Shown: positions 47,717 to 64,000 of the stretch, piece after piece
Layout: the number at the start of each line of letters is the position of its first letter
Position numbering within the stretch: the first letter of the stretch is position 1
NCBI GenBank assembly: GCA_017474385.1
Contig: JAFVHU010000155.1
Coordinates: 81,057 to 145,056 of the forward strand
DNA length: 64,000 nt
Direction: 5' to 3'
DNA from: Afipia sp.
GTDB taxonomy: Bacteria; Pseudomonadota; Alphaproteobacteria; Rhizobiales; Xanthobacteraceae
Notes under the pieces: model-generated
What the model saw: the letters and a program-made list of their open reading frames with translations, nothing else
Databases searched by the model: none
What the model was told of the DNA's origin: nothing
Program-made: the position numbers and the translations under genes

Positions 47717-48610
47717 TCACCCAAAAAAGCGAACCGTCCCGGCGGGCGAAACGTCGTAACCGGTAAGGTCGGTTGCGCGCTGTCTGAGCCGCTTTTTCGA
47801 AATGAACCCCATCAAGGCTTGCAGCGCTGGTTTGAAGTAAGAGCGCTGCCGCATCACCAGATCGAAATTTTCCCAAAGCAGCGGTACGAAATCGAGACCC
47901 GCTGCCTTTGCGGCAGCCCGCGTCGCAATGCCGCAATCGGCTTCGCCGGCGCGTATGGCCGCTGCGAGATCGGGTCCGGTTAAACAGGGTGGATCGAGCC
48001 GCCGGAGATCTTTCGGTTTCGCGCCATGCTGTTTCAGAAGAACGTCCAGCAGCATTTGAGCACCTGCACCGGGCTGCCGCACGGCCATGGTTGCGCCGCG
48101 CGTGAGCACATCGGCGAGCCCGGTGAGGTTTTTCGGATTTCCCGGCGCGAGCAGGAGGCCCTGTTCGCGCCGCACGAAGCCGATCAGCGCGGCATCGTGC
48201 AGACCGGCCATGGCGCGCACCGCGGCGACATTGGCATCCTCGCCTGAGCCATTCACCTCATTATCAGTGTGAAAATGAATCGCAGCGGCGATGGCTTCGC
48301 CGCGCAAGACGCGGCCGACGCCGCTTTCGGTCCCTTCAACAAGGGTCGCGAGTCCGGAGCCGGATTCGCGCAGGCACCATTCGAGCAGGGCATCTTGGCT
48401 TCCGCCAACGATTAACGGCGGATCGGCCGTCATCATTCCGGACGGTCGCATCAGGCCTGACAGCATCCAGCGGTCGAGTTCATCACGCGGGAAAAGCCAC
48501 TTGCCGGTGACCTTGGTGCAGGGGATCGCGCCCTCGGCGACCAGCTCATAGAGCTTGCGTTCGCCGAGACGAAGGTAATCGGCTGCCTCACTGGTCGTCA
48601 GCATCTCCAT
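47717..48610 (-). CDS. HTH regulator with periplasmic-binding-like domain (probable tungstate/molybdate sensor)
   Basis: 297 residues from ATG 48610; the open frame to 48637 would run into the operator, and ATG 48604 is a further option. The N-terminus is an excisionase-type HTH (LTTSEAADYLRLGERKLYEL, VTGKWLFPRDELDRWM). The rest is a PBP-like domain resembling oxyanion-binding proteins (IVGGSQDALLEW, RQPGAGAQMLLDVLL, GEADCGIATRAAAKAAGL). It is divergent from tupBCA and a near-palindrome lies in between, so it probably senses tungstate or molybdate and controls the transporter. Confidence 0.85.
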   Translation of the reverse strand: MEMLTTSEAADYLRLGERKLYELVAEGAIPCTKVTGKWLFPRDELDRWMLSGLMRPSGMMTADPPLIVGGSQDALLEWCLRESGSGLATLVEGTESGVGRVLRGEAIAAAIHFHTDNEVNGSGEDANVAAVRAMAGLHDAALIGFVRREQGLLLAPGNPKNLTGLADVLTRGATMAVRQPGAGAQMLLDVLLKQHGAKPKDLRRLDPPCLTGPDLAAAIRAGEADCGIATRAAAKAAGLDFVPLLWENFDLVMRQRSYFKPALQALMGFISKKRLRQRATDLTGYDVSPAGTVRFFG

Positions 48611-48619
48611 CCTGCATTT

Positions 48620-48639
48620 ATATGCATAATTCTGCATAT
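48620..48639. promoter_or_regulatory. Near-palindromic operator between the regulator and tupB
   Basis: ATATGCATAATTCTGCATAT reads almost the same on both strands: seven-base arms ATATGCA/TGCATAT and a central AATT, with one mismatched pair. It is 10 bases from the regulator start and 60 from tupB. A further TATGCA half-site occurs at 48667-48672. Confidence 0.65.
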
Positions 48640-48698
48640 TTTCAATTCATTGACACTGTCGAAAAGTATGCAGGACAACGCATGAGGAGGAAAACGGA

Positions 48699-49391
48699 AT
48701 GCTGGACGGGCTCAATGCCTGGCAACTGATCGTGAGCGGCGATGCGACGCTGTTTGCCATCGTCAAATTATCGCTGGCCGTCAGCCTTGCAGCGGTTGTG
48801 CTAGCGGCCTGCATTGGCTTGCCACTCGGAGCTGTCCTGGCGCTCACCCACTTTCCCGGACGCAATATCATCGTCGTCGTCCTCAACGCCTTCATGGGAT
48901 TGCCGCCGGTTGTTGTCGGTCTCGCGGTCTATCTTCTTCTTTCCCGCTCGGGGCCGCTCGGCGATCTCGGCATCCTGTTCACGCCATCCGCCATGGTGAT
49001 CGCGCAGGCCATCCTGATCGTGCCGATCATCGCCGCACTCACACGCCAGACCATCGAAGACCTTTGGGCCGAGTATCGCGACGAACTGTCGGCGATGGAC
49101 GTCGGTCCGCTTGGCCGTATGGCGACGCTGTTGTGGGATGCGCGTTTCAGTCTGCTGACAGCGTTGCTTGCCGGTTTCGGCCGGGCCGCGGCGGAAGTCG
49201 GCGCCGTCATGATCGTCGGCGGCAACATCGATGGCTTCACCCGGACCATGACCACGGCGATTGCGCTTGAGACTTCGAAAGGCAATCTGCCGCTCGCATT
49301 GGGACTCGGCTTGATTCTCGTCGCTCTGGTTTTTGCGATCAACGCCGCCGCATGGGGCGCGCGTATCTGGTCGGAACGGCAGGCGGGGTGA
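48699..49391 (+). CDS. tupB: Tungstate-type ABC transporter permease TupB
   Basis: 230 residues, five to six membrane helices. The coupling loop DVGPLGRMATLLWDARFSLL and the GRAAAEVGAVMIVGGNIDGF segment with GGNI are those of the tungstate transporter permease, distinct from ModB. A strong ribosome site GAGGAGG precedes the ATG. The stop is within three bases of the tupC start. It forms the channel for TupA-delivered oxyanion. Confidence 0.9.
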   Translation: MLDGLNAWQLIVSGDATLFAIVKLSLAVSLAAVVLAACIGLPLGAVLALTHFPGRNIIVVVLNAFMGLPPVVVGLAVYLLLSRSGPLGDLGILFTPSAMVIAQAILIVPIIAALTRQTIEDLWAEYRDELSAMDVGPLGRMATLLWDARFSLLTALLAGFGRAAAEVGAVMIVGGNIDGFTRTMTTAIALETSKGNLPLALGLGLILVALVFAINAAAWGARIWSERQAG

Positions 49392-49393
49392 TC

Positions 49394-50116
49394 ATGCGGG
49401 CGCCGGTCACCGATCTTCCCGTGGTGCTCGATCGTGTTTCCGTTCGCGCGGGCGCGATGACAATTATCGACCGTTTGAGTCTGACGCTCGCATCCGGTGC
49501 GCCGACCGTGGTGGTCGGGCCGAACGGAGCGGGCAAGAGCACGCTGCTGCGCCTCTGCATGGGGCTCTCGGTGCAAACCGAAGGCGCGATCACCTGGGGC
49601 GGACGCGCGGATGTCAAACCAACACGGCGTGCATTCGTGTTCCAGCGCCCTGTCATGCTGCGCCGGACCGCTGCCGCTAACATTGCGTATGGATTGACGC
49701 ATGCGGACTACCCGCACGAGAAGATCGCCGCACGTACCGCGGAATTGCTCGAACGCGTCGGTCTCGCTGAACTCGGCATGCGTCCCGCCCGTCGTTTGTC
49801 CGGCGGCGAACAGCAGCGGCTCGCCTTGGCGCGGGCGCTGGCGCGGGACCCGGAATTGCTTCTGCTCGACGAGCCAACCGCCAGTCTCGATCCGGCGGCC
49901 ACGCGCAGCGTCGAGGAAATAGTGCGCGCTGCCGCGCAGTCCGGGATCAAGATCGTCATGTCATCGCACGATCTAGGCCAGGTGCGGCGGCTTGCCGGCG
50001 ACGTTGTTTTCATGGTGCGCGGCACCGTTCGCGAACAGACGCCTGCCGAAGACTTCCTCAAGAACCCGTCGACGCCGGAGGCTGCGGCCTTCGTGCGCGG
50101 CGATCTCGTCGTTTGA
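49394..50116 (+). CDS. tupC: Tungstate-type ABC transporter ATPase TupC
   Basis: 240 residues from ATG 49394; GTG 49388 overlaps the tupB stop and is also possible. Walker A GPNGAGKSTLLRL, signature RLSGGEQQRLALARAL, Walker B LLLLDEPTASLDP, H-loop MSSHDLGQV. It lacks the C-terminal oxyanion-binding (TOBE) domain of ModC, as expected of TupC. It energises TupB. The binding-protein gene follows after 19 bases. Confidence 0.9.
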   Translation: MRAPVTDLPVVLDRVSVRAGAMTIIDRLSLTLASGAPTVVVGPNGAGKSTLLRLCMGLSVQTEGAITWGGRADVKPTRRAFVFQRPVMLRRTAAANIAYGLTHADYPHEKIAARTAELLERVGLAELGMRPARRLSGGEQQRLALARALARDPELLLLDEPTASLDPAATRSVEEIVRAAAQSGIKIVMSSHDLGQVRRLAGDVVFMVRGTVREQTPAEDFLKNPSTPEAAAFVRGDLVV

Positions 50117-50135
50117 ACACTCACAAGGACATGTC

Positions 50136-50966
50136 ATGACACATCGATATGCTTATGCTCTCGTCGTCTCGCTGCTTGCGGCGGCGTTCGCGACGCCAGT
50201 CTCCGCCCAGGACAAGTCCATCGTTGTCGCCTCGACGACATCGACGCAGGATTCCGGCTTGTTCGGTTACATCCTGCCGCTGTTCAAGGCCAAAACCGGC
50301 ATCGATGTGAAAGTGATTGCGCAGGGCACCGGGCAGGCGCTCGATACCGCGCGGCGCGGCGATGCCGACGTCGTCTTCGTGCATGCCAAGGCGCAGGAAG
50401 AAAAGTTCGTCAGTGAAGGTCAAGGCGTGAAACGTTTCGATGTCATGTACAATGATTTTGTCCTGATCGGCCCCAAAACCGATCCCGCAGGCGTCAAGGG
50501 CAAGGACATCGTCGTTGCGCTGAAGACGATTCAGGAAAAGACCGCTCCGTTCGTCTCACGCGGCGACAAGTCCGGCACCCACTCGGCTGAGCTTGCCTTG
50601 TGGAAGCAGGCCGGGGTCGATCTCGAAACCGCCAAGGGCCCATGGTACCGCGAGATCGGGCAGGGCATGGGCGCCGCACTCAACACCGCGGGCGCGATGA
50701 ATGCCTATGTCGTTTCCGATCGGGGCACCTGGCTGTCGTTCAAGAATCCTGGCGACCTCGCAATCGTGGTCGAAGGCGACAGGCGGCTTTTCAACCAGTA
50801 CGGCGTTATCCTCGTGAACCCTGAAAAACACCCCACGGTGAAAAAGGACCTCGGCCAGAGTTTCATCGACTGGCTGATTTCATCCGAGGGTCAAGCAGCC
50901 ATCGCGGCCTACCAGGTCAACGGCAAGCAACTGTTCTTCCCCAACGCCGAAAAGAAGGCGTCCTGA
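50136..50966 (+). CDS. tupA: Tungstate-type ABC transporter binding protein TupA
   Basis: 276 residues from ATG 50136 (an ATG at 50131 is out of frame). The signal peptide ends at ATPVSAQD. The ligand motif VASTTSTQDSGLF and later SRGDKSGTHSAE match the TTTS...SGL and SGT.. signatures of tungstate-binding TupA proteins. Whether it prefers tungstate over molybdate cannot be proved from sequence. Order tupB-C-A is unusual only in having the binding protein last. Confidence 0.9.
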   Translation: MTHRYAYALVVSLLAAAFATPVSAQDKSIVVASTTSTQDSGLFGYILPLFKAKTGIDVKVIAQGTGQALDTARRGDADVVFVHAKAQEEKFVSEGQGVKRFDVMYNDFVLIGPKTDPAGVKGKDIVVALKTIQEKTAPFVSRGDKSGTHSAELALWKQAGVDLETAKGPWYREIGQGMGAALNTAGAMNAYVVSDRGTWLSFKNPGDLAIVVEGDRRLFNQYGVILVNPEKHPTVKKDLGQSFIDWLISSEGQAAIAAYQVNGKQLFFPNAEKKAS

Positions 50967-50980
50967 CGAGCTTTCGGGCT

Positions 50981-51018
50981 GGCCATCCGGCGGTTGCTAA
51001 GCTGCCGCCAGATGGTCC
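50981..51018 (+). terminator. Imperfect hairpin after tupA
   Basis: GGCCATC-C-GGCGG pairs with CCGCC-A-GATGGTCC around TTGCTAAGCTG, with a small bulge. No T run follows, so it may attenuate rather than stop transcription into the moeA-like genes 10 bases later. Confidence 0.4.
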
Positions 51019-51028
51019 ACCATCAGGC

Positions 51029-52159
51029 ATGATTCAGACACAGCGTTTGACGGCGGCGCTCACACCGCTCGATGTTGCGCTCAGGTTGCTGTGCGGCGAC
51101 CTGAAACCAGTCGATGCCATTGAAGTGTCGCTGGCGGAGGCGATCGGTCGTGTCGCAGCCGAGACTTCTCCGTTGAAAGCGGCGTTGCCCGCTTTCAACA
51201 CGGCAACGACTGACGGATGGGCGCTGCGAGCGTACGACATTGTGGGTGCATCGTCCTATTCGCCGCTTCAGCTTGCGAAATCGCTGCGTTGGGTCGAGGC
51301 GGGCGAGCGTCTTCCAGACGATTGTGACTGCGTGCTGGACGCCGATTTGGTCGAACAGGCGGGGCCGTTGTTTCAGGTTCTGGCGGAAGCAGTTCCCGGT
51401 CAGGGAATCCATAGGGCGGGGGATGACATCGCTGCGGGATGCTCAATCGTTGAAGCGGGGCGGCGGATCGATGCGGTCGATGCGCTTGCTATTCGCGCGG
51501 CTGGAGTTGAGCGCGTGGCGGTTCGATTGCCGCATGTTCGCGTGATTGATGTGCGCGCCGCGGACGGCAGCGCGGCAACGTCACAGTTCACTTTCGACTT
51601 CGCGAAGGCCGCGGGCGCTCGCGTAACGATGTCTCAAACGAGCGGGCGCGACGTCGCATCCATATCTTCTGTCTTAGGCGCGGAGGCGTGCGATTTGCTG
51701 GTGACCGTCGGTGGCACGGGTGGCGGCCGGATGGATGCGACGATACACGCGATCAAGGAGCGCGGCATGCTGTTGGCACACGGACTTGCGCTACAGCCGG
51801 GGCGCACGGCGGGTGTCGGCAAAATCGGCGCGACGCCGGTGGTCGCGGTGCCCGGCTTGCCCGATCAGGCGTTAAGCGCTTGTCTGGCGCTGGTTCAACC
51901 GGTGCTGGACCAGCTCACAGCGCGACTGCCGCGGCAGGAAATGATCCGCCCCCTTGCGCGCAAGATTTCTTCCGCTATCGGTGTTGCCGAAATCGCGCTG
52001 CTGAAAATGTCGGATCAGGCCTGGATGCCGCTTGCGACAGGACAGCTTTCGCTCGATGCCATTGTCAGCGCCGACGCCTGGCTTGCCGTGCCGGGAAACA
52101 GCGAGGGCTATGCCGCCGGAACGCCTGTGGGCGCTTTCCCCCTTCGCGAGATGTCATGA
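51029..52159 (+). CDS. MoeA-like molybdopterin-binding protein
   Basis: 376 residues, a MoeA architecture: N-terminal domain with PAFNTATTDGWALRAYD (the DGxA site), and the MPT-binding fold with DLLVTVGGTGGGRMDATI near residue 222 and VVAVPGLPDQALSA. Sequence is divergent from housekeeping MoeA: the usual GGxSxGxxD is GGTGGGRMD. MoeA inserts the metal into adenylylated molybdopterin. A MoeA-PBP gene follows after 10 bases, so two MoeA-type proteins are made together. Confidence 0.85.
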   Translation: MIQTQRLTAALTPLDVALRLLCGDLKPVDAIEVSLAEAIGRVAAETSPLKAALPAFNTATTDGWALRAYDIVGASSYSPLQLAKSLRWVEAGERLPDDCDCVLDADLVEQAGPLFQVLAEAVPGQGIHRAGDDIAAGCSIVEAGRRIDAVDALAIRAAGVERVAVRLPHVRVIDVRAADGSAATSQFTFDFAKAAGARVTMSQTSGRDVASISSVLGAEACDLLVTVGGTGGGRMDATIHAIKERGMLLAHGLALQPGRTAGVGKIGATPVVAVPGLPDQALSACLALVQPVLDQLTARLPRQEMIRPLARKISSAIGVAEIALLKMSDQAWMPLATGQLSLDAIVSADAWLAVPGNSEGYAAGTPVGAFPLREMS

Positions 52160-52169
52160 GTTCTGTGAA

Positions 52170-54119
52170 ATGAACAAGTCGGACCCAACTTCAAATCGCG
52201 ATGGCGCGGATCAGGATCAGTTTCTGACGATCCAATCGCGCGAGGAAGCGCTCGCGCGATTCGAGGCTGCGCTTTTTCCTCGCGATCTGGCGGTTGAGGA
52301 ACGCGCACTTTCAGACGCGCTCGGTCTGGCTTTGGCGAATGATGTCGTGGCGGCGATGGATGTGCCGCCATTCGACCGTTCCAACGTTGACGGGTTTGCC
52401 GTTCGCTCCGCAGATCTGGCGACTGCGGGCGAAGCATCGCCGGTTCAACTGCGCTTGAATGACGAGACAATCGCCTGCGGCACTGCGCCGGAATTGCCGG
52501 TGGTGCAGGGCTCGGCGACGCCGATCGCGACCGGAGGTCCGATTCCGCGCGGCGCAGATGCCGTGGTGATGATCGAGCACACGCAGCCAATAAGTAACGA
52601 CGCGATCGAGATCAGACGTGCTGTCTCGCCGGGCCAGTTCGTCTCATATGCGGGCTCGGATATCGCGCGGGGGGAGATTCTGCTGCGCGCGGGCACGCTG
52701 GTCGGCTCGCGTGAAATCGGCATGCTTGCCGCATCGGGTATCGCGCGCGTTCCGGTGACGAAGAAACCGCGCGTTGCGATCATCTCAACCGGCGACGAGC
52801 TTGTTCAACCCGGCTTGCCACTGCGTCCGGCTGCGATCTATGACACCAACGGCGCGATCGTCGCGGCTGCTGTCTCCGAAAACGGCGGCGAGGCCGTCTT
52901 TCTCGGTGCGTTCCCGGACGAGGAGGACAAGCTCGAAGCTGTGATGCGCGAGGCGCTGGCAACCAGCGACATGCTTCTCCTGTCCGGCGGCACATCGAAG
53001 GGTGAGGGTGACGTTTCCCATCGCATTGTGGCGCGGCTCGGCAAACCGGGTATCGTCGCGCATGGTGTTGCGCTGAAGCCGGGAAAGCCGCTGTGCCTCG
53101 CGGTGTGCGATGGCAAGCCTGTCGTTATCCTGCCGGGGTTTCCCACTTCGGCGATGTTCACGTTTCACGATATGATCGTGCCGGTGTTGCGCCGCCTCGC
53201 GGGATTGCCGCCGCGCAACGACGCGCGCGTGACAGCGAAGGTGCCGGTGCGCATTGCATCGGAGCTTGGCCGTACCGAATTCGTCATGGTGTCGCTGGTG
53301 GAAGGCGATGATGGATTGATTGCCTATCCATCGGGCAAGGGCCCCGGTGCGATCACGTCGTTCGCTCAGGCCGACGGATTTCTGAAGATCGATGCGCTCG
53401 CGGACCAGATGCCGGCAGGCACGGACGCAGAGGTTACGCTGTTTACACCGCATGTCCGCGTGCCTGATCTGGTGATTGTCGGCAGCCATTGCACGGGACT
53501 CGATGTTGTCACTGCGCCGCTGGCGCGAACTGGCTTGTCCGTCCGTTCGATCTCGGTGGGAAGCCTTGGCGGACTGGCCGCGGCCCGGCGCGGCGAATGC
53601 GATCTCGCACCAATCCATCTCTTTGATGAAAAGACCGATACGTACAACACGCCGTTTCTTGTCTCGGGTCTTGAACTCGTGCCGGGATATCGGCGCATGC
53701 AGGGGATCGTCTTTCGTGCAGGCGACAAGCGCTTCGAGGGTCTCAGTGCCGAAGATGCTGTGCGTGCGGCGCTGAAAGATCCTTCATGTCTGATGGTCAA
53801 CCGCAATCAGGGCGCGGGCACGCGCATTCTGATCGACCGTTTGCTTGGAGAAGCACGGCCCGACGGTTACTGGAACCAGCCGCGCTCGCACAATGCCGTC
53901 GCGGCTGCCGTTGCGCAGAACCGCGCCGATTGGGGCATGACCATCGCACCGGTGGCGCGTGCAGCCGGGCTGGGCTTCATTCCGTTCGCTGAAGAGCACT
54001 ATGATTTTGCGCTCGTGACCGCGCGAAAGCAGCGTCCCGCCGTGCAGGCTTTTCTGGACTCGCTAACGTCACCGGAAACGCGTGCTGCACTGGAGCGGGC
54101 AGGATTCCGCCCGGCATAA
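52170..54119 (+). CDS. MoeA fused to a periplasmic-binding-like (PBP) domain
   Basis: 649 residues from ATG 52170; the frame extends upstream only inside the previous gene. Residues 1-410 are MoeA: PPFDRSNVDGFAVR, ISTGDELVQPG, LLLSGGTSKGEGDVSH and LPGFPTSAMFTF are all conserved, so catalysis is likely intact. Residues about 430-649 are a PBP-like domain without signal peptide (VNRNQGAGTRILIDRLL, NRADWGMTIAPVARAAGL), similar to the C-terminal domain of the tup regulator. It may bind the oxyanion or a cofactor intermediate in the cytoplasm and hand it to the MoeA active site. Confidence 0.92.
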   Translation: MNKSDPTSNRDGADQDQFLTIQSREEALARFEAALFPRDLAVEERALSDALGLALANDVVAAMDVPPFDRSNVDGFAVRSADLATAGEASPVQLRLNDETIACGTAPELPVVQGSATPIATGGPIPRGADAVVMIEHTQPISNDAIEIRRAVSPGQFVSYAGSDIARGEILLRAGTLVGSREIGMLAASGIARVPVTKKPRVAIISTGDELVQPGLPLRPAAIYDTNGAIVAAAVSENGGEAVFLGAFPDEEDKLEAVMREALATSDMLLLSGGTSKGEGDVSHRIVARLGKPGIVAHGVALKPGKPLCLAVCDGKPVVILPGFPTSAMFTFHDMIVPVLRRLAGLPPRNDARVTAKVPVRIASELGRTEFVMVSLVEGDDGLIAYPSGKGPGAITSFAQADGFLKIDALADQMPAGTDAEVTLFTPHVRVPDLVIVGSHCTGLDVVTAPLARTGLSVRSISVGSLGGLAAARRGECDLAPIHLFDEKTDTYNTPFLVSGLELVPGYRRMQGIVFRAGDKRFEGLSAEDAVRAALKDPSCLMVNRNQGAGTRILIDRLLGEARPDGYWNQPRSHNAVAAAVAQNRADWGMTIAPVARAAGLGFIPFAEEHYDFALVTARKQRPAVQAFLDSLTSPETRAALERAGFRPA

Positions 54120-54129: not shown

Positions 54130-54759
54130 TCAGGCGCCATCGAGCGCTGCGAGTTGCTCGGCCTCTGCAACGTCCTCGACGGTGTTGGCGTTGAAGAACG
54201 GATCGACCCGTTTGTCCGGCCACGTCACCGTCGCCAGTTTGTATCGCGCGGTCCAGCGGTCGATCTTGCGCATGTCTTCCACGACCAGTGCGTGCCGCAG
54301 TTCGCCGCGCAGCGCGACGTTCCAAAGTCCGATCACCGGATGGGTCTGATCGCCGGAAGCTGCGACCGCGAGTTGTGCGCCTTCTTCGATCCGCGCGCGC
54401 TGCAATCGCGCAACCAGATCGCGCGGCAGGAACGGGCAGTCCGTCGCCGCGCTGAGGACCCATTCGACATCAGGCCTGTGTGCGGCCGCCCAGTCGAGAG
54501 CTGCGAGCACGCCGGCGAGGGGACCTGCAAATCCTTCGACAGTGTCTGCGACGACTGGAAGCCCGAAAGAAGCGAACCGCGCAGGGTCGCCATTCGCATT
54601 GAGAATGAGCCCGTCGCATTGCGGCGCAAGCCGCGCAATCACGCGCTCGAGGATGGTGCGCCCGCCGATGGTTTTCATCGGCTTGTCGCCGCCGCCCATG
54701 CGGCGTGCCAGTCCGCCTGCGAGGAGAACACCGAGTGTCGATGGCCGGTCCTCAGTCAT
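54130..54759 (-). CDS. mobA: Molybdenum cofactor guanylyltransferase MobA
   Basis: 209 residues from ATG 54759, overlapping the fdhD stop by eight bases; a longer frame to 54852 lies inside fdhD. The nucleotide-binding motif [16 protein letters not shown] and the Mg site TDCPFLP are those of MobA, which joins GMP to the pterin to make the bis-MGD cofactor that formate dehydrogenase needs. Lengths match the family. It is the last gene of the minus-strand run FeS protein-mrp-fdhD-mobA. Confidence 0.92.
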
Positions 54760-55666
54760 CGTCGCTGCCCTTGCGCCGATGCCGCGCGGATTCCTCAGCG
54801 ACAAACTCCAGACTTTGGTCGAAGACGATCCGTTCCTGACCTGACAGCGCAATGAACCGCTTGCCTTTGGTCCGGCCGATCAGCGTCAGGCCCACTTGCC
54901 GCGCTAACTCAACGCCCCACGCGGTGAAGCCGGAGCGCGACACCAGAATGGGAATGCCCATTCGTACTGTCTTGATTACCATTTCGGAGGTGAGGCGTCC
55001 GGTGGTGTACATGATCTTGTCGGCGACATCGACCTTGTGCCGCCAGGCCCAGCCCGCGATCTTGTCGACCGCATTATGCCGTCCGACGTCTTCCATGTAG
55101 CAGACCGGTTCGCCCTCCTTGCAAAGCACACAGCCATGGATGGCACCGGCTTCGAGATAGAGCGAGGGCGCTGTGTTGACGGCATGGGTCATCTGATAAA
55201 GCCACGATGTGCGTAACTCCGCCTTGGGCAGGGTCACACCTTCGATCGCCTCCATAAGGTCGCCGAAGGCTGTGCCTTGTGCGCAGCCGGAGGTGAGCGT
55301 TTTCTTCTTCAGCTTCTCTTCAAAGTTGGTGCCGCGCTCGGTGTAGACGACCACGACCTGGAGATCGTCGTCGTAGACCACCTCGGTCACGATATCGTCG
55401 AGCTTCAGCATATTCTGGTTAAGGAGATAGCCGAGCGCGAGATATTCCGGATAGTCGTTGATCGTCATCATGGTGACGATCTCTTGCGAGTTCAGATAGA
55501 GGGTCAGCGGACGCTCGACCGGTACGCTGATCTCGACCGGAGCGCCGGTCTGGTCGATCCCCATGACGCGCTCGGTGAGGCGTGGGTTCTTCGGATACGG
55601 CATTACGCGCGGTGCGAGCTGATCGCTCTTCGCAGTTTTCGACCTGGTTTGAATTGTTTCCGTCAT
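54752..55666 (-). CDS. fdhD: Formate dehydrogenase sulfurtransferase FdhD
   Basis: 304 residues. FdhD transfers sulfur from a cysteine desulfurase to the molybdenum or tungsten of bis-MGD. Family marks are [36 protein letters not shown] and [14 protein letters not shown]. The sulfur-carrying loop, CxxC in E. coli, here reads TSGCAQGT: Cys128 is kept but the second Cys is missing. A separate GCVLC pair is present near residue 179. It starts three bases after the upstream mrp stop. Confidence 0.95.
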
Positions 55667-56560: not shown

Positions 56561-58600
56561 TCATTGCGATCCGAAAGGATCGTTCTTCTTGATTTCCCGC
56601 GCGCGCAGATAATCCTCGGTGGACATCACGGGCGGTCGTTGAGGCGCAGCGTGAGGATCGAAACTCTCATTGACGACGGCCTCGACACGGCAGTCCGCAC
56701 ACATCTTGATAACGTCAAGCCGCCGTGCGTTGGCGCCTTCGAACATCCAGTGCTTTTCCTGCAACTTCGACAGCACGCGCTCGATCGAGCTTCTGGTCCC
56801 GAACGGCGTGCCGCAGGCGATGCAATGGACTGGTTCTTCTTCCTTCAGCACGCGCAGCGGTGCATTCCACGCCCGGAAGTCGAGCCGAGGTTCCAATGTG
56901 ATGACATCTTCAGGGCAGGTTGCTTCGCAAAGCCCGCATTGAACGCAGAGGCTTTCGGTGAATCGCAACATCGCCCGGTCGGGATTGTCGGAGAGCGCGT
57001 TCGTGGGACAGGCGGTAACGCACGCATGGCAGAGCGTGCAGCCTTCGACGTTCACCTGAACAGTGCCGAACGGCGCGCCGGCCATCAGTGGAACGACATC
57101 GACAGGAGCAGGGGCCGCAAGATGCAGTTCGCGGAACATGGTCTCCAGCACGCCGCGCTTGGCGCCACGCGGGACCAGGCTCGCCGGATTCGATGAAGCA
57201 ACCCCGGACGGCATGGCGTCGAGCATCGCGCGCAGCTGATCTGGATCGTCGGTTTCCAGAACGCGGACGAGGCCATCGCCGAAGCCGAGCGCTGCGGCGA
57301 TCGTCCCTGACATATCGGCGGCGCGGCGCAATCCGGCCGTTTCGTGCCGGGGCTGCGCGCGCAGCAGAAGCGCGACACCTGTACCGCCATAGGCAAAGAC
57401 CGCCGCGAGAGATTCCGGTCCGAGCTGCGTGACTTCGTTGACGCGAACCGGAAGCACGTTGGCGGGCAAGCCGTCACCAAACCGTGCCAGTGCATCGATC
57501 AATGGTTCGCCATGGTCGCCGTCATGAAACAGGACAACCGCCTGTTCGCCGCCGGCCTTGCGATAGGTTTGCAGCAATGTCCGCAGACGGCGCATCAGCG
57601 CGTCCGCACTCGGCAGCGAATAGGATGCCGCGCCGGTCGGGCAGACCGATGCGCATGAGCCGCAGCCGGCGCATATGTTGGGATCGATCGCGACGGCATT
57701 GCCGTTCGGCGTGATCGCACCGGTTGGGCACAGATCGAGACAGCGCGTGCAGCCGGTAATGTTCGAGCGCGAATGCGCGCAGAGCGATTCTTCGAAATGA
57801 ATGAAGCGCGGTTTGTCGAACGTGCCGACGAGGTTGCCGGCTTCCGCAATCGCGCGCTCGACGGCGGCGCGGTCGCGCGGATCGGCGCGCAGATAGCCGG
57901 GCCGCAATTCGTGCGCCGGAAACAACGGCAGGCCGCCGCTGAGATCGAGGATGAGATCGCAGGTCGAAGTCGCGCCATCGCGCGAAGCACCGAACACGAG
58001 CTTGCTCCGCGAGGAGGGCGCCGGCAAAGCGTAGTCGTCGATCGCGAGTTCGAAATTTCCGAGATATCCGCGCGCATTGCGGATCGTGCCTTTCAGCACG
58101 GGAAATTCATTGACCGCCCGCGGTGTGATGTCGCCGGGCTTGGTGAGAATGACGGTAATGTCGAGGCGATCGGCGACGCGCTTGGCCGCGTCGATGGCAA
58201 CATCGTCATGGCCATAGATCAGCGCGACACCGCCGCTTTCCAGCGTGACCAGGGAGATCGGCGGCATCTCTTCCGAGGCTGCGGCTATCAGCGCCGCGGC
58301 TTTCGGGCCAGCTGCCGCTGCATCCTTCGACCATCCGCCGGTTTCGCGAATGTTCACGAAGGTGAGAGGGACGTCGGGAAATTCCTCGGCGACTTCCTTG
58401 AATAGCGGCGCTTCCTGCGTACACGCCACCGTGATCGGTTCGCCCTCAGTGAGCGCAGCCTTGAATTGGGCGAGATCCAGACCGCAAAGCTGGTTGGCCT
58501 GCGTCATATGAGCCGCGCACCCGCGCCCGATTGCCTGCGCATCGAGCGGCATGGTCTTTTCGCAACTGCAAACCAGAAGGCGGGATTTTGCGCTGTTCAT
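56561..58600 (-). CDS. Large multi-ferredoxin iron-sulfur protein
   Basis: 679 residues from ATG 58600; the frame to 58678 has no ribosome site. Four classical 4Fe-4S motifs occur in two pairs: CTRCLDLCP and CAGCGSCASVCP (about residues 300-345), CTLCHACVTACP and CVQCGLCEATCP (about 555-600). Additional Cys pairs are CSCEK at the N-terminus, CIACG and CADC near the C-terminus. No signal or membrane segment, so it is cytoplasmic. I do not know a named function; context suggests electron transfer to or from formate dehydrogenase or its maturation. Confidence 0.85.
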   Translation of the reverse strand: MNSAKSRLLVCSCEKTMPLDAQAIGRGCAAHMTQANQLCGLDLAQFKAALTEGEPITVACTQEAPLFKEVAEEFPDVPLTFVNIRETGGWSKDAAAAGPKAAALIAAASEEMPPISLVTLESGGVALIYGHDDVAIDAAKRVADRLDITVILTKPGDITPRAVNEFPVLKGTIRNARGYLGNFELAIDDYALPAPSSRSKLVFGASRDGATSTCDLILDLSGGLPLFPAHELRPGYLRADPRDRAAVERAIAEAGNLVGTFDKPRFIHFEESLCAHSRSNITGCTRCLDLCPTGAITPNGNAVAIDPNICAGCGSCASVCPTGAASYSLPSADALMRRLRTLLQTYRKAGGEQAVVLFHDGDHGEPLIDALARFGDGLPANVLPVRVNEVTQLGPESLAAVFAYGGTGVALLLRAQPRHETAGLRRAADMSGTIAAALGFGDGLVRVLETDDPDQLRAMLDAMPSGVASSNPASLVPRGAKRGVLETMFRELHLAAPAPVDVVPLMAGAPFGTVQVNVEGCTLCHACVTACPTNALSDNPDRAMLRFTESLCVQCGLCEATCPEDVITLEPRLDFRAWNAPLRVLKEEEPVHCIACGTPFGTRSSIERVLSKLQEKHWMFEGANARRLDVIKMCADCRVEAVVNESFDPHAAPQRPPVMSTEDYLRAREIKKNDPFGSQ

Positions 58601-58646
58601 GACCTGCAACCTTGACCCTTGGCGTCTGCTCAGAGTGGCTATTTCA

Positions 58647-58747: not shown

Positions 58748-59500
58748 ATGATGGTTTCGCGTACGGCGCAAGCGGAACAGCCGCTCGATCTGCCTCCGGG
58801 GTACACGCTCGTATCGCTTCGCGAGTATGGCGATGCGTTTGCGCACGGCTGCAGCATTGCAGCCGAAGCCGGTGCGGGAACACTGGTCTGGGTCCGGCGC
58901 TACGATCTGGTCGAGTTCGCCGTTGTACTCGAGCCGGACGAGCCGCTCGCGTCGGCGCGCCGCGCCTTCTTTGCGGGCATGACTGCCATCGGGGACGCTA
59001 TCGCGGTGCATTGCCCGCCGGAGCGGGAGGTGCAGTTCACGTGGCCGGATACGATTCTGTTCGACGGCGGTGTGCTGGGTGGCGGGCGGCTTGGCTGGCC
59101 GAAGGACTGCCGCGAGGATGAAGTTCCGGATTGGTTGGTGTTCGGCGTCATTCTGCGCGCCGCGGACATGGCGCATGTCGAGGAAACCGTTGCGGCGGGC
59201 GGCGTCGCCCTGCTCAACGAAGGGTTCGAAATGGTCGAGACCGAGGCGATCATCGGCAGTTTCGCCCGTCATTTCATGGCGGCGTTCGATCGGTGGAACG
59301 AGCGAGGTTTCGAGCCGATCGCGCGCGATTATCTGGAGCGACTCACGAAGCAGATGGCCAGCCAGCGGCGCGGAATCGACGTCAACGGCGATCTGCTCGT
59401 CAGTGCGGCGAAGGGGCCGCCGGAGCGGAACAGCTTGCTCGACGGGCTGGCCAAGGTTGCATGGTATGATCCCGAATACCGCGCCCCGAAACTTGGGTGA
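58748..59500 (+). CDS. Biotin/lipoate protein ligase-like protein
   Basis: 250 residues from ATG 58748 or 58751; the upstream open frame is non-coding leader. The body resembles the biotin/lipoate A/B protein ligase fold, including FTWPDTILFDGGVLGGGRLG where ligases have KWPND(D/I)xxxxxKxxG. The catalytic Lys of true ligases is not evident in that loop, so it may have another role. It is the first of a five-gene run leading toward formate dehydrogenase; eight bases separate it from the next gene. Confidence 0.75.
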   Translation: MMVSRTAQAEQPLDLPPGYTLVSLREYGDAFAHGCSIAAEAGAGTLVWVRRYDLVEFAVVLEPDEPLASARRAFFAGMTAIGDAIAVHCPPEREVQFTWPDTILFDGGVLGGGRLGWPKDCREDEVPDWLVFGVILRAADMAHVEETVAAGGVALLNEGFEMVETEAIIGSFARHFMAAFDRWNERGFEPIARDYLERLTKQMASQRRGIDVNGDLLVSAAKGPPERNSLLDGLAKVAWYDPEYRAPKLG

Positions 59501-59507
59501 GGCGGAG

Positions 59508-60065
59508 ATGCTGAAACTGCCGCGCACCATCAGGCTTGATCCATCGGACACATTCGTGTTCGAGCGCGCTGCCGAGCCCGGCGAATGGGCGGTGTCCGGT
59601 GCGTTTGTGTTCTGGGACAGCGATACCGCGACGCTTGGACAGAAACAGCGGGTCGCGCTGCGGTCCGGTTTTCTTGGAATCGACAGTCTCGGCTGGTCGA
59701 CGCTTGCTGTCGTAACCGAGGCATCCGAGGCCGAGCGGCAAAGCGTGATCGATCGGCTGGCTGCGCAATTATTGGCGAAGTTCGGAGCGCCGGATATCGA
59801 AGCCGCGCGCGCTGCGGCGGAGGAAGAAGTCGCGTTTGCGGCTTCGCTGTGCGATCACGAGCCACAAACGTTGCTGGCGGTCGCCCGGAGCGTCGAGAAT
59901 GGAGAAATCCGCGAGCGCTTCCGGACGTTGAAGCCGCGCGCGATCGAACCGGGCGGGGATCGATTGCACACCCATGCACGCGCCTTTACCTTTCATGAGG
60001 TCGAAGGCGACGAACCGGCCGAGGAAGTCGATCTTCTTGGGCTCACAAAGACGGATCGGACATGA
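59508..60065 (+). CDS. Conserved protein of unknown function (DUF6505-like)
   Basis: 185 residues from ATG 59508, with GGCGGAG directly upstream. No signal, membrane helix or Cys motif; it has one Cys (SLCDHEPQ). An N-terminal beta-rich part (IRLDPSDTFVFERAAEPGEW) is followed by an acidic/Ala helix (about 100-125). I link it to DUF6505 from memory of formate dehydrogenase neighbourhoods, not from a search. The stop overlaps the next start as ATGA, so the two are coupled. Confidence 0.7.
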   Translation: MLKLPRTIRLDPSDTFVFERAAEPGEWAVSGAFVFWDSDTATLGQKQRVALRSGFLGIDSLGWSTLAVVTEASEAERQSVIDRLAAQLLAKFGAPDIEAARAAAEEEVAFAASLCDHEPQTLLAVARSVENGEIRERFRTLKPRAIEPGGDRLHTHARAFTFHEVEGDEPAEEVDLLGLTKTDRT

Positions 60066-61081
60066 GAGAATTCTGGGTTGCTTCAGGTCATCATCTTACG
60101 CGCCGGGCCGATCACGGCGGGCTGATTGCGACGCCGGAGCTGATCATGGCTTACCTAGCGCGGCCGGAACTGATGCCGCCCGATGATGCATGCGACGCTG
60201 AGCGGGATCTGCATGCGAGTCTGCTGGCGGACCCGCTTCGTCCGGTATCCAAGGCCGACATTGCGACGCTGGCCGACGCTGACGCGCGCGAAAACTGGAC
60301 GTTCATGACGGCGTTTCGCGATCGGTTGATGGCGGCGCCATCGCTGGAGGCCGTGTACGTGGCTTTGGCGCGCAAGGGCGCCGGCGATCTGCCGCCGATC
60401 TTTCTCTCGCAGCTGTGTCATCTGATCCTGCGCAACGCACTTGAAGGCTGCGACGATCCGTATGTGTTGCGCGCGGCCGAATTGTTCTATCGGAGCCAGA
60501 AAGCCACGATTCACGACGGCGCGCTGCTGCTTGCCGATGCCGAAATCGTCGAGGCGCAGCATCATGCACAGCATGATCTTCATACCGCTCCGCTGACCGC
60601 CATGCTCCAGCCGCAGGCCTTCGGCGAAATGGACGTGATGGACGACGAGAATGCCTGGACCTATTGGTCGCGATCCGACGCGCACGCGATGGTCATGAAT
60701 CTCGGCGGCAATCCGAAAGCACGCAATGCGCTGTGCCGGGTGATCGAACGCTGGATCGCCCATCTTCTGGGTGTCGCTGTGAAGGTGGAGCCCGTCGCGT
60801 CGATCGAGGATCGCGACTGGCGGTGGTTCGTCGGCCTCGACAGCGAAGGAACGCGGATCGGTAACGCGCTCTGGAATGGAGATACGCCAGGCGCAGATGC
60901 AGCCGAGCGGATCGTTGCGCTGATGCGCATGACGTTCGAAGATTCGCGTTTCGTGGATGAACGCGTCGGCAACAAGCCCGTTTATCTCATTCTGGCGATG
61001 GGCGCGGACAAGGTGGTGCGCCTGAAGCCGCAGAATCTTGTCGCGGGCTTGCCGCTTGCGTCAGCGGCGAACGTTGCGTGA
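60062..61081 (+). CDS. Conserved protein of unknown function (DUF6352-like)
   Basis: 339 residues, soluble, start coupled to the previous gene by ATGA. It opens MREFWVASGHHLTRRADHGG and contains two His-rich spots (AQHHAQHDLHTAP near 165) and acidic DVMDDENAWTYWSRSDAHAM near 195, which could be a metal site. I associate it with DUF6352 from memory. Nothing in it shows an activity. It is part of the formate dehydrogenase maturation run. Confidence 0.72.
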   Translation: MREFWVASGHHLTRRADHGGLIATPELIMAYLARPELMPPDDACDAERDLHASLLADPLRPVSKADIATLADADARENWTFMTAFRDRLMAAPSLEAVYVALARKGAGDLPPIFLSQLCHLILRNALEGCDDPYVLRAAELFYRSQKATIHDGALLLADAEIVEAQHHAQHDLHTAPLTAMLQPQAFGEMDVMDDENAWTYWSRSDAHAMVMNLGGNPKARNALCRVIERWIAHLLGVAVKVEPVASIEDRDWRWFVGLDSEGTRIGNALWNGDTPGADAAERIVALMRMTFEDSRFVDERVGNKPVYLILAMGADKVVRLKPQNLVAGLPLASAANVA

Positions 61082-61106
61082 TTTACCGGTAACGGGAGGT
61101 TCAGAC

Positions 61107-61616
61107 ATGACCGAAGCGTCCCGTGAAGTCGGCGTGGTATTGCGTCGCCGCGCGATCGACAATCCATGGATCGACCACATGTGGTCGCCTGTCACGATCC
61201 TTGAGACTGTGCCCGCAACCGCGCCCTGGACGGTGTTGTCGCAGGAGGCCGATGCGACGCTGTATTACGCTGGCGCTGCGTTCATCGATCTGTTCAGCGC
61301 CGAGACGGCCAATTACCGCGACAATCTTGTCGACGGTTCGCCGCAAATATGGATCGCGCTGCGGCGTCAGGACGGTGGACCGGAACTTGAACTGACCAAG
61401 GTCACCGCCGATCCGACCGAAGGTGAGGCGATGTTTGAAAGCGGCACCGACGTCATCGGCGCCGTGCCGATGCCATCGGAGATCGCGGCATGGATCGCGG
61501 CTTTCGTTGATGAGTTTCACGTCGAGCAGGTGTTCCACAAGCGCAAACGCGATCGTGCGAATGTCGATCGTAAGCCCGACTACGACCCATCCGGCGGACG
61601 AAAGGATGACGTATGA
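61107..61616 (+). CDS. DUF3305 protein
   Basis: 169 residues from ATG 61107, preceded by GGGAGG. The sequence (WIDHMWSPVTILETVP, LYYAGAAFIDLFSAET, QVFHKRKRDRANVDRKP) is that of the DUF3305 family, regularly encoded just upstream of DUF3306 near formate dehydrogenases. Function unknown; no signal or cofactor motif. The stop overlaps the next start (ATGA). Confidence 0.82.
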   Translation: MTEASREVGVVLRRRAIDNPWIDHMWSPVTILETVPATAPWTVLSQEADATLYYAGAAFIDLFSAETANYRDNLVDGSPQIWIALRRQDGGPELELTKVTADPTEGEAMFESGTDVIGAVPMPSEIAAWIAAFVDEFHVEQVFHKRKRDRANVDRKPDYDPSGGRKDDV

Positions 61617-62317
61617 GCGGGGACGAGAAGGACGAGAAGAGTTTCCTCTCACGCTGGTCGCAGCGCAAACAGGATGCGAAGCAGTCAGAGGCCGACAGCA
61701 CGGCTGAAAGATCGGCTGAAGAGGCCGAAGCTGCTCCCGCGCCTGTTGTTGAAAGCGATGCCGACGAGCAGTTTGATCTCTCAAGCCTGCCGAAGCTGGA
61801 AGAGATCACGGAAACTACCGATATAACCGGCTTCCTGCGCACGGGTGTGCCCGAAAGTTTGCGGAATGCAGCCTTGCGGAAGTCCTGGGCGCTCGATCCC
61901 GCGATCCGCAACTATGTCAATCCGGCGCTGGACTATGCGTATGACTGGAACACGCCGGGGGGTGTGCCGGGGAACAGCGAGATCGCGGCCGGCACTGATA
62001 TTGCGAAAATGGTTTTGCAGATCATGGGCGGCGAATCGTCCGGCGCTCCGCAATCGCCCGACGCCCTGCCGCATAGTGACGCAGCCGATACGGCAACAGG
62101 TGGTTCCGGTATTGATGCGCCGCAAAATTTGGCAGCGAATCTGCCACTCCAGCAGGTGAGATTGTCCGACGCATCGACGATCGCAACGCCTGTTGCCACT
62201 GATTTCAGGCAAGCAGAGCAGGCTCGGATCGAGAGCGGACAGGCCGTCGACGAAAACAAGTCTAGTGCGTCGCAACACCAGATGCGGCGACATGGTTCTG
62301 CAAAACCAAGGATTTAG
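61613..62317 (+). CDS. DUF3306 protein
   Basis: 234 residues. The N-terminal FLSRWSQRKQDAKQ and the core DLSSLPKLEEITETTDITGF with LRKSWALDPAIRNYVNPALD are typical of DUF3306. The C-terminal third is low complexity and poorly conserved in type. No signal peptide. It is coupled to DUF3305 and precedes the HTH-TorD gene by 112 bases, so the operon may end here: an AGAC-AAAA-GTCT hairpin overlaps the stop. Confidence 0.82.
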   Translation: MSGDEKDEKSFLSRWSQRKQDAKQSEADSTAERSAEEAEAAPAPVVESDADEQFDLSSLPKLEEITETTDITGFLRTGVPESLRNAALRKSWALDPAIRNYVNPALDYAYDWNTPGGVPGNSEIAAGTDIAKMVLQIMGGESSGAPQSPDALPHSDAADTATGGSGIDAPQNLAANLPLQQVRLSDASTIATPVATDFRQAEQARIESGQAVDENKSSASQHQMRRHGSAKPRI

Positions 62318-62333
62318 ACAAAAGTCTTTGAGG

Positions 62334-62380
62334 CATAGGACGAACCTATGGTACTAATTGGAACTAGAATAATTCCAGTT
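62334..62380. promoter_or_regulatory. Two inverted repeats upstream of the HTH-TorD gene
   Basis: CATAGG-ACGAA-CCTATG (62334-62350) is a perfect six-base-arm repeat; AATTGGAACT and AATTCCAGTT (62356-62380) form an imperfect one. The stretch is markedly AT-rich against its surroundings. Plausible operators for the HTH protein encoded 50 bases downstream. Confidence 0.5.
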
Positions 62381-62429
62381 AATCAGATGCCTGATTTGAA
62401 GGCACGGGTGGGGGAACTCGGTTCGTATC

Positions 62430-63218
62430 ATGCGGGACTCAGGACTAGAGCAGGCAATCAAGGCAGCAGGCGGCGTCGCTTCCCTGGCGAGAGCCATTGG
62501 AATTGCACAGCCTTCGGTTTCGGCATGGTCACGTATTCCGGCTGAGAGAGTTCTCGCCGTTGAGACTTTGACACAGGTCCCCCGTTTCGTTCTCCGCCCC
62601 GACCTCTACGGATCAGCCGGGGATCATATGTCAGCGAAATCAGACATCGACGAAATCGATCAGCTTCGCGCCGCGGAGTACGGCTTGTTGTCGTTGCTGC
62701 TGGGCAAGGCGCCGACGGCGGACACGTTGTCCAAGGTCGCGATGCTAAAAGGCGACGCGTCCGATCTCGGCATGGCGCATGTCGAACTCGCTACAGCGGC
62801 GACGGAGTTCGACGAGCGCGCGGTCGCCAAGGAATTTTTCGATCTGTTCATCGGACTGGGGCGAGGGGAGCTGTTACCCTATGCCTCGTATTATCTCACG
62901 GGCTTCCTGCACGAGCGGCCGCTCGCACGCGTCCGTGAAGATTTCGATGTCCTGGGAATCGAGCGAGCCGGACCGGCGCGTGAGCCGGAAGATCACATCG
63001 CAATTCTGCTCGAGGTGATGGTTGGTCTTGCGCGCGGCGACTTCGACACGGACTTCGCGGCGCAGGCGCGGTTCTTCGAGCGGCATCTGAAGCCATGGGC
63101 TGCGCGGATGTTCGCCGACCTCGAAATTTCGCAATCGGTCAAGTTCTATCGCGCTGTCGGGCGCGTCGGCCGCATCTTCATGGAATTGGAATCAGAGGCT
63201 TTCACGCTGTCCGAGTGA
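62430..63218 (+). CDS. HTH domain fused to a TorD-type chaperone
   Basis: 262 residues from ATG 62430. Residues 1-60 are a YdaS/Cro-like HTH (LEQAIKAAGGVASLARAIGI, QPSVSAWSRIPAERVLAVE). Residues about 72-255 are the all-helical TorD/DmsD/NarJ-type chaperone (IDQLRAAEYGLLSLLLGK, LLPYASYYLTGFLHERPLA) that binds Tat signal peptides and holds apo-molybdoenzymes. The formate dehydrogenase catalytic subunit with its Tat signal lies 285 bases downstream. Chaperones of this family normally lack a DNA-binding domain. Confidence 0.88.
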   Translation: MRDSGLEQAIKAAGGVASLARAIGIAQPSVSAWSRIPAERVLAVETLTQVPRFVLRPDLYGSAGDHMSAKSDIDEIDQLRAAEYGLLSLLLGKAPTADTLSKVAMLKGDASDLGMAHVELATAATEFDERAVAKEFFDLFIGLGRGELLPYASYYLTGFLHERPLARVREDFDVLGIERAGPAREPEDHIAILLEVMVGLARGDFDTDFAAQARFFERHLKPWAARMFADLEISQSVKFYRAVGRVGRIFMELESEAFTLSE

Positions 63219-63259
63219 CGTGAAAGCCGAACTGGAAAAATGACTGGAAGGAGACCGCG

Positions 63260-63490
63260 ATGAGCAAGCCGTCAAAGAGCAAGGCATCTCCAGAGAAGCC
63301 GCAGGATGCGAAGGGCCTGGATCGTCGCCGGTTCTTCATAATGGGCGGATCGGCCGTCGCTGCGGCCGCGACTGCTGTGCCGCTGGCAACCGAGGCGGAA
63401 GCGGACGAGTCGCAGGCAGAGCGCGTCAAGGCTCGCTACAAGGCGGATTCGCCAGACGTCAAAAACTACTATCGCGTCAACCGCTATTGA
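63260..63490 (+). CDS. Small Tat-signal protein of the formate dehydrogenase region
   Basis: 76 residues. Twin-arginine signal LDRRRFFIMGGSAVAAAAT followed by a short mature tail (KARYKADSPDVKNYYRVNRY). It matches the small Tat-targeted family found just upstream of formate dehydrogenase alpha subunits. Function unknown; a subunit or maturation role for the periplasmic enzyme is likely. GGAAGGAGA precedes the start, and the catalytic-subunit gene begins 13 bases after the stop. Confidence 0.85.
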   Translation: MSKPSKSKASPEKPQDAKGLDRRRFFIMGGSAVAAAATAVPLATEAEADESQAERVKARYKADSPDVKNYYRVNRY

Positions 63491-63503
63491 TGGAAGCACG
63501 CAC

Positions 63504-64000
63504 ATGTTGATCAAGAGAAAAGAAGGAATCGCCGGCCGCGCGCGCTTGCAGGGCGTTGCCGCGAGCCTCGCATCCGGCGTTCTCGATCGCCGAACCTTCC
63601 TGCGCCGCTCAGGCCTCGTTGCGGGCGCTGGCGCGGCTATTGGATTGATGCCGCTCGGATCGGTGCGCAAGGCGCAGGCCGGGCCGAAAATCGTCGGTGC
63701 GCCGACGGAAATCAAAAAGAACATCTGCACGCATTGTTCGGTCGGATGCACGGTCATCGCCGAAGTGCAGAACGGCGTTTGGGTCGGTCAGGAACCGGCT
63801 TGGGACAGTCCGATCAATCGCGGATCGCACTGCGCAAAGGGCGCTTCGGTACGTGAACTGGTGCACGGCGATCGCCGCCTGAAGTACCCGATGAAGCTGG
63901 TCAACGGCGAGTGGCAGAAGATCGAATGGGATCAGGCCATCAACGAGATCGGCGACAAGATGCTCGAGATCCGCGCCAAGTCCGGCGCCGACTCGGTCTA
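63504..64000 (+). CDS. Formate dehydrogenase catalytic (alpha) subunit, N-terminal part
   Basis: The gene runs off the end; 165 residues are visible from ATG 63504. A Tat signal (LDRRTFLRRSG, residues 27-36, then a hydrophobic stretch) directs export. The 4Fe-4S cluster ligands follow the spacing Cys75-x2-Cys78-x3-Cys82-x27-Cys110 (CTHCSVGC ... HCAKGA), typical of formate dehydrogenases, with the Lys after the last Cys. The metal may be tungsten or molybdenum; tup genes nearby favour tungsten but do not prove it. The active-site Sec/Cys lies beyond the window. Confidence 0.92.
   Translation, partial: MLIKRKEGIAGRARLQGVAASLASGVLDRRTFLRRSGLVAGAGAAIGLMPLGSVRKAQAGPKIVGAPTEIKKNICTHCSVGCTVIAEVQNGVWVGQEPAWDSPINRGSHCAKGASVRELVHGDRRLKYPMKLVNGEWQKIEWDQAINEIGDKMLEIRAKSGADSV

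Follow-up and report, generated by a model that had tools for sequence, protein, structure and literature searches.

The window analysed here, a stretch of 64,000 nucleotides from an Afipia sp. genome (assembly GCA_017474385.1, contig JAFVHU010000155.1, hereafter C74), ends in a dense gene cluster that we read, with a probability of roughly 0.7 and from sequence comparison, as part of a composite island supplying tungsten to two formate dehydrogenases (FDHs), FDH1 and FDH3. Between positions 47717 and 64000 lie 18 genes, all of them open, with intergenic gaps of -40 to 147 bases. Gene families were called by Pfam and NCBIfam profile searches, the scores being set against the curated cut-offs, and these matches bear out all the families, as well as the close packing of the genes, that a first-pass annotation had listed from the letters of the DNA. 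The features, including a helix-turn-helix (HTH) sensor, a Tup transporter and proteins carrying signals for twin-arginine translocation (Tat), are as follows:

47717..48637, minus strand: putative oxyanion sensor, HTH_17 and PBP_like (PF12728, PF12727), divergent from tupBCA
48699..49391, plus strand: TupB-like permease (NF041773, 176.4 bits against a cut-off of 320; NF038017, 251 bits against a cut-off of 100)
49352..50116, plus strand: TupC-like ATPase (ABC_tran; position)
50136..50966, plus strand: TupA-like tungstate-binding protein (NF041772, 245.3 bits against a cut-off of 400)
51029..52159, plus strand: degenerate MoeA-like protein of 376 residues (QPGR, GLPDQ; no MoeA_C domain)
52170..54119, plus strand: MoeA-PBP_like fusion (NF011068, 791.8 bits against a cut-off of 534), molybdenum-type Lys/Ser pocket
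54130..54759, minus strand: MobA (TIGR02665, 218 bits, cut-off 151.85)
54752..55666, minus strand: FdhD (PF02634, 248 bits; TIGR00129, 136.3, just below the cut-off of 140.9)
55670..56521, minus strand: Mrp/ApbC-type iron-sulfur carrier (PF10609)
56561..58600, minus strand: multi-4Fe-4S ferredoxin protein (Fer4 models)
58748..59500, plus strand: BPL/LplA-like protein (BPL_LplA_LipB_2, PF16917, 184.6 bits), a relative of 3bfm
59508..60065, plus strand: DUF6505 protein (PF20115)
60062..61081, plus strand: DUF6352 protein (PF19879)
61107..61616, plus strand: DUF3305 protein (PF11749), start codon ATG
61613..62317, plus strand: DUF3306 protein (PF11748)
62334..62350, no strand: inverted repeat CATAGG-N5-CCTATG, candidate operator by its position, conserved upstream of HTH-torD
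62430..63218, plus strand: HTH (Cro/YdaS-like)-TorD chaperone fusion (PF15943, 1.6e-15; PF02613, 1.7e-29)
63260..63490, plus strand: small Tat protein, presumably fdhX-like (TIGR02811, 25.4 bits, cut-off 48.45; twin arginine in the translation)
63504..64000, plus strand: FDH3 alpha (fdhA), N-terminal 165 codons, with the twin-arginine signal RRTFLRRSG; continues on contig C109

Base 64000 of the window is the last base of C74, so that fdhA is cut after 165 codons. Contig C109 (locus L003) overlaps this end by 187 bases with one mismatch and carries, in this order, the remainder of fdhA (884 residues), fdhB and fdhC for the FDH3 beta and cytochrome b gamma subunits, mobB, moeA1 for a canonical MoeA of 418 residues, and the beta and alpha genes of a second FDH, which has two subunits and a beta subunit of the diaphorase type. 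The next 20 kb was fetched in six Afipia-titled genomes, and five of them (L085-L089) have the same run, fdhABC-mobB-moeA1-fdh1B-fdh1A; given this joined order, a second copy of fdhA was rejected as an explanation of the junction of C74 and C109. The beta and gamma subunits, for which the first-pass annotation had proposed a downstream extension of the contig, are both found on C109 in an order matched by these five genomes. For the first enzyme, the beta subunit exceeds the NF038355 cut-off (333.3 against 240) and the gamma subunit that of TIGR01583 (160.4 against 115.85), and the alpha subunit stays below the general TIGR01591 cut-off (425.9 against 666.25); with a predicted Tat-exported alpha, a beta and a cytochrome b gamma subunit encoded in one gene run, it is classed as an FDH3-type formate dehydrogenase, the periplasmic FdhABC. 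The alpha subunit of the second enzyme matches 7vw6_A, the FDH1 alpha of Methylorubrum extorquens, a tungsten enzyme, with 1707 bits (576 bits for the next distinct enzyme), and on this match the second enzyme is classed as the orthologue of the Methylorubrum FDH1. A supply line for one enzyme, as initially proposed, therefore does not hold, since the FDH1 orthologue sits in the same island beside FDH3. As a side observation, genome G340 holds a second FDH3 copy (L268, 72% identity) with no TorD match in the 4.6 kb upstream of it.

Concerning the transporter, the best substrate-specific NCBIfam models for the permease and the binding protein are TupB and TupA, and the best PDB match of TupA is the tungstate-binding protein 3lr1. 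Among the reported TupA marker residues (the TTTS motif, His59, Arg118, Thr124 and Asp170; PMC5517513), equivalents of His59, Arg118, Thr124 and Asp170 are retained by eye, and the motif reads STTS. TupABC probably imports tungstate. In 16 loci, among them that of the window, tupB and the gene for the HTH-PBP sensor, which we take to be COG1910-type, are transcribed divergently, and no palindrome conserved by eye was found between the two genes in these loci.

The association of FDH3 with TupA was followed in 150 genomes of the same order (E thresholds of 1e-200 for the FDHs and 1e-40 for TupA) and in an overlapping sample of 299 genomes of the phylum. In the order sample, FDH1 was found in 59, TupA in 75 and FDH3 in 57 genomes, the latter spread across 29 families, and TupA accompanied FDH3 in 57/57 and FDH1 in 57/59 cases. 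Each enzyme keeps this association when the other is set aside: among the 91 FDH1-negative genomes, TupA was present in 11/11 with FDH3 versus 7/80 without it, and among the FDH3-negative ones, in 11/13 with FDH1 versus the 7/80 without it. In addition, no more than 25 kb separates TupA from FDH3 in 25/57 genomes (12 families) and from FDH1 in 5/57, both figures being lower bounds because of draft contigs; the earlier statement that most genomes scatter these functions was therefore too strong. In the phylum sample, 53/54 FDH3 genomes (39/39 outside the order) carry TupA, which occurs without FDH3 in nine genomes. A logistic fit, in which the kinship of the genomes is not modelled, ranks FDH3 (3.2) first, FDH1 (2.6) second and NapA (1.7) third as correlates of TupA. 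A formate dehydrogenase has also been tied to tungstate transport in Campylobacter jejuni, where its activity is reported to require a TupABC-like transporter (PMC4178425).

The MoeA proteins provide a second line of evidence. Loading of tungsten into the FDH1 of M. extorquens reportedly requires each of MoeA1, MobB and FdhD, and the MoeA1 substitutions R291K and A312S let molybdenum in (PMC13197769). The C109 MoeA has both Arg and Ala at the two pocket positions (KPGR, GNPVA), that is, the signature of a tungsten-type MoeA. This pair is absent from both MoeA proteins encoded between 47717 and 64000: the 376-residue protein has Arg without Ala (R/Q), and the MoeA-PBP fusion reads Lys/Ser in 84/84 copies of loci L005-L144, which led us to reject it as the tungsten insertase. 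Note that MoeA-PBP was suggested to be tungsten-specific in a report in which such fusions co-occur with TupA (PMC11733289), a specificity that our residue counts do not favour. The genes nearest to the C109 MoeA have Arg/Ala in 73/76 copies, the three exceptions being additional Lys/Ser genes next to an Arg/Ala gene. One Arg/Ala MoeA stands beside Lys-type ones in 12/12 genomes (the Afipia genome itself and the 11 FDH3 genomes without FDH1), and 12/12 FDH3 genomes outside the order have one each, so that all 24 FDH3 genomes checked encode one, versus 1/20 Tup-less genomes (the first 20 listed of 75), namely G056; in loci L180-L182, the MoeA genes are all Lys/Ser. Because of this distribution, the tungsten branch would accompany FDH3 itself, and the likely tungsten insertase is the Arg/Ala MoeA of C109. 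The island was first described as self-contained within 16 kb, which is not borne out, as this probable insertase and mobB lie beyond the end of C74. As for the two remaining MoeA proteins, locus L124 shows the order moeA-like, moeA-PBP, mobB, moeA1, tup, which is the order of moeA5, moeA3, mobB and moeA1 by locus numbers in M. extorquens, with tup in the same cluster; by gene order only, the moeA-like and moeA-PBP genes may correspond to moeA5 and moeA3. Since moeA3 and moeA5 are reported as dispensable for FDH1 (PMC13197769), deleting moeA-PBP may well leave the enzyme active.

Our synteny comparison indicates how the island is built. Island proteins were mapped on the best 80 of 248 relatives fetched by the MoeA-PBP protein, with matches covering less than 15% of the query skipped (less than 25% in the mapping that gave the gene orders of L109, L110, L113, L114 and L124). 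The usual order in Bradyrhizobium is (tup) moeA-like, moeA-PBP, mobA, fdhD, mobB, moeA1, fdh1B, fdh1A; tupA was found in 28/80 and FDH1 alpha in 34/80 loci, many of which are cut by contig ends. The gene fdhD is present in 55/80 loci; among the island genes, it is followed by mobB in 47 of them and by the FDH3 block, starting with mrp, in seven, all of them Afipia-titled records, and one locus (L044, Afipia) ends at this point. Outside Afipia, 11 genomes have a close FDH3 alpha (94-96%), of which ten were taken in (nine Bradyrhizobium-titled and one metagenome-assembled genome (MAG) of Hyphomicrobiales; G019 was left out, as was L038 from the search for close FDH3). All ten loci hold the FDH3 block without tup, mobA or fdhD within 20 kb, namely the genes for the ferredoxin, BPL-like, DUF6505, DUF6352, DUF3305, DUF3306, TorD and small Tat proteins and fdhABC; the block starts at mrp in nine, and L100, located at a contig start, begins with the ferredoxin gene. 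As an example, FDH3 (95%) and TupA are ~1.76 Mb apart on the single contig of G351. Bradyrhizobium thus keeps two separate blocks, one in which FDH1 adjoins the cofactor genes, in some cases with tup, and one made up of FDH3 and its maturation genes, and in seven Afipia records the FDH3 block is nested between fdhD and mobB of the block that elsewhere accompanies FDH1. That the block falls apart where relatives retain the enzyme had been named beforehand as an outcome that would refute the supply line, and this is what Bradyrhizobium shows: the linkage breaks, and the co-occurrence of FDH3 with TupA holds. Altogether, a tungsten supply line is supported by this co-occurrence and by the Arg/Ala signature of MoeA, short of proof.

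Two other explanations have to be considered. The tungsten line could serve FDH1 only, FDH3 being a molybdenum enzyme that draws on MobA and FdhD as well and came to lie nearby through a chance rearrangement, which we consider unlikely. Indeed, the moeA-mobA-fdhD-mobB-moeA1 block of Bradyrhizobium sits with FDH1 and not with FDH3, mobB follows fdhD in most of the loci counted above, and MoeA1 of M. extorquens is reported as needed for FDH1 and not for the molybdenum FDHs (PMC13197769); however, the 11 FDH3 genomes without detected FDH1 all have both TupA and the Arg/Ala MoeA, TupA is found near FDH3 in five times as many genomes as near FDH1, and in four loci with FDH3 and without FDH1 (L109, L110, L113, L114), mobB, moeA1, mobA, fdhD and tup follow fdhABC. 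It is quite improbable, although the Tup scores and NapA discussed below would suit it, that TupABC is a dual importer of molybdenum and tungsten for enzymes with the bis-molybdopterin guanine dinucleotide cofactor generally, with no metal specialisation: most of the oxyanion-site residues of TupA are retained, and the Afipia genome has, on other contigs, two more MoeA genes of the Lys type (L183, K/A; L193, K/S), as two parallel metal branches predict.

Several observations nevertheless weigh against a composite tungsten island serving both enzymes. TupA and TupB both score under the curated NCBIfam TupA/TupB cut-offs (245.3 versus 400 and 176.4 versus 320), and NapA, a molybdenum enzyme, also tracks TupA in the phylum sample (24/28, and 5/9 without FDH1 and FDH3), so that part of the association between FDH3 and TupA may reflect lifestyle. 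The sampled genomes are related, and the Fisher values for co-occurrence therefore overstate their independence; G407 carries FDH3 with no TupA at the threshold used. The Arg/Ala signature comes from one experimental study, Ala alone is unspecific (4/23 MoeA proteins from Tup-less genomes are Lys/Ala), and the 20 Tup-less genomes are also without FDH1 and FDH3, a comparison which cannot separate the three. In addition, G056 (L145) encodes its Arg/Ala MoeA without detected TupA, FDH1 or FDH3, an exception that invites a look for another tungsten system. Two more Afipia-titled records (L047, L071) are not nested, and in the sixth record whose downstream region was fetched, a groundwater MAG (L009/L090), the upstream locus is without tup, mobB is displaced and there is no FDH1 within 20 kb. 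Finally, M. extorquens lacking FDH1 and grown on molybdenum was reported to have a molybdenum FDH activity needing MoeA2 and not MoeA1 (PMC13197769); if its FDH3 contributes to this activity, FDH3 can take molybdenum.

With the composite island as our preferred reading, and from the observed gene content, order, nesting, co-occurrence and insertase signature, we infer the metal of FDH3, the roles of the DUF proteins and the following order of steps. TupABC, perhaps controlled by the HTH-PBP sensor, would import tungstate, the Arg/Ala MoeA and MobB (C109) would together put tungsten into the pterin, MobA would add guanosine monophosphate, and FdhD would sulfurate and deliver the cofactor, which would go both to the soluble FDH1 and to the Tat-exported FdhABC complex of FDH3. 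TorD would keep hold of apo-FdhA up to the point of loading and Tat export, and the FDH3 alpha subunit would be matured before export together with the ferredoxin, BPL-like and DUF proteins. In the boldest step, HTH-TorD would report unfinished FdhA to its own promoter. The comparison makes a comparative-genomic case for the periplasmic FDH3 of Pseudomonadota as a tungsten enzyme and gives independent support to the two-residue marker of tungsten insertases.

The last step rests on an N-terminal HTH, overlooked in the first-pass annotation, which is in frame with the TorD domain (PF02613, 103 bits against a cut-off of 22.2; NCBIfam TorD NF003442 is not reached, 56.8 against 132). Pooled dN/dS (non-synonymous to synonymous substitution rates) values against 16 orthologues (six from Afipia and ten from L091-L100) are 0.056 for the HTH, 0.376 for the linker and 0.096 for TorD, and the low value of the HTH argues that it is a conserved part of the TorD protein under strong purifying selection. 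The 112-bp gap before HTH-torD is strongly conserved and contains CATAGG-N5-CCTATG, the only perfect copy in the genome assembly (84% complete). Its core, ATAG-N7-CTAT, lies within 250 bp upstream of torD in 27/28 HTH-fused and 0/17 unfused loci of a first set, and in 8/9 fused and 0/27 unfused loci of a second set of 40 further FDH3 upstream regions, four of which were dropped for having no TorD match (6/7 fused without L257 and L258, which are 95% identical to L094 and L095). Combined, the core is found in 35/37 fused versus 0/43 distinct unfused loci (L124 and L262, from the same genome, being counted once, hence 43 and not 44), a count in which related loci of one clade amount to few events and most unfused loci come from more distant relatives. 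In a single family (f39), the fusion and the repeat occur together in genus g65 and are both absent from genus g76; in letter shuffles, the core appears in 0.2% of the regions. With 11 bp between their centres, the half-sites are one turn of DNA apart, a spacing seen with dimeric HTH proteins. Alternatively, the right arm of the repeat may belong to a -10 element, which would make this a promoter. A client-sensing regulator, in which the TorD part would capture unfinished FdhA, the HTH part would recognise ATAG-N7-CTAT ahead of torD-fdhX-fdhABC, and DNA binding would change with occupancy by unfinished enzyme, remains a tentative proposal that we hold somewhat less probable than not; if true, FDH3 synthesis would follow the supply of tungsten cofactor. 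The fusion and its repeat raise the question of whether a Tat chaperone can report an unfinished metalloenzyme to a promoter, and no chaperone-regulator of this kind was found among the titles and abstracts of the literature searched. The first repeat is followed, at positions 62351-62407, by a TGCC/GGCA stem and by another palindrome, which reads CTGGAATAATTCCAG in several Bradyrhizobium and ACTAGAACAGTTCTAGT in two Afipia and is imperfect in the window; the arms change together between genera.

Other parts of the island were also characterized. DUF3305 aligns with the C-terminal region of NF011058, a family of MobA-DUF3305 fusions, with a score below the cut-off, which suggests that it may act at the MobA hand-off as a partner of MobA. 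No PDB sequence relative was found for DUF6352 at E values up to 5, and DUF6505 has PDB sequence matches only at E 0.25 or worse; AlphaFold models of both are too poor for fold comparison (mean pLDDT, the predicted local distance difference test, of 35.7 from seven sequences and 46.6 from six sequences, respectively). A search of positions 44000-64000 against Rfam gave three matches, all below the gathering scores (E 2.4 to 4.1), and so no sign of a known riboswitch. Across Afipia and Bradyrhizobium, GATAGCATA or ATAGCATA is retained in the intergenic region from which the ferredoxin and BPL-like genes diverge (58601-58747). Just before position 47717, a WD40 and cytochrome c protein (45925-47265, minus strand) is a possible electron partner of FDH3; relatives of it occur within the fetched 20 kb in 18/24 FDH3 loci of L105-L133 versus 4/20 of L085-L104, in counts where the former loci were partly picked for their proximity to Tup and WD40 cross-matches are possible.

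The components and both sub-clusters are of known kinds. The closest system is the reported tungsten branch of M. extorquens, with tupBCA, MobB, an Arg/Ala MoeA, FdhD, an orthologous FDH1 and further MoeA paralogues in the vicinity (locus numbers p3047, p3048 and p3050), in which moeA1-mobB-tupBCA form a cluster (PMC13197769); in contrast, the Afipia island also brings together mobA, fdhD, the FDH1 genes and a complete FDH3 block. The FDH3 (FdhABC) of PMC4464133 and NF038355 is alike in its subunits, TorD, small Tat protein, ferredoxin and DUF3305/3306, and TorD with FDH operons and DUF3305/3306 has already been described there, whereas the Afipia block adds the BPL-like, DUF6505, DUF6352 and Mrp proteins, is nested in a tungsten block and has a TorD with a DNA-binding domain, the main text of that paper making no mention of a helix-turn-helix. 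Campylobacter jejuni likewise ties a membrane-bound FDH to a Tup transporter, but its enzyme is described as a selenocysteine one (PMC4178425). The MoeA-PBP fusions reported with TupA (PMC11733289) share architecture and partner, yet they were suggested to be tungsten-specific, whereas the Afipia fusion keeps Lys/Ser and a separate MoeA has Arg/Ala. As far as the literature searched goes, which omits most subscription journals, what is new here is the nested island with two enzymes, the near-exceptionless association of FDH3 with Tup and the insertase signature, and the fusion of TorD to an HTH, together with the repeat.

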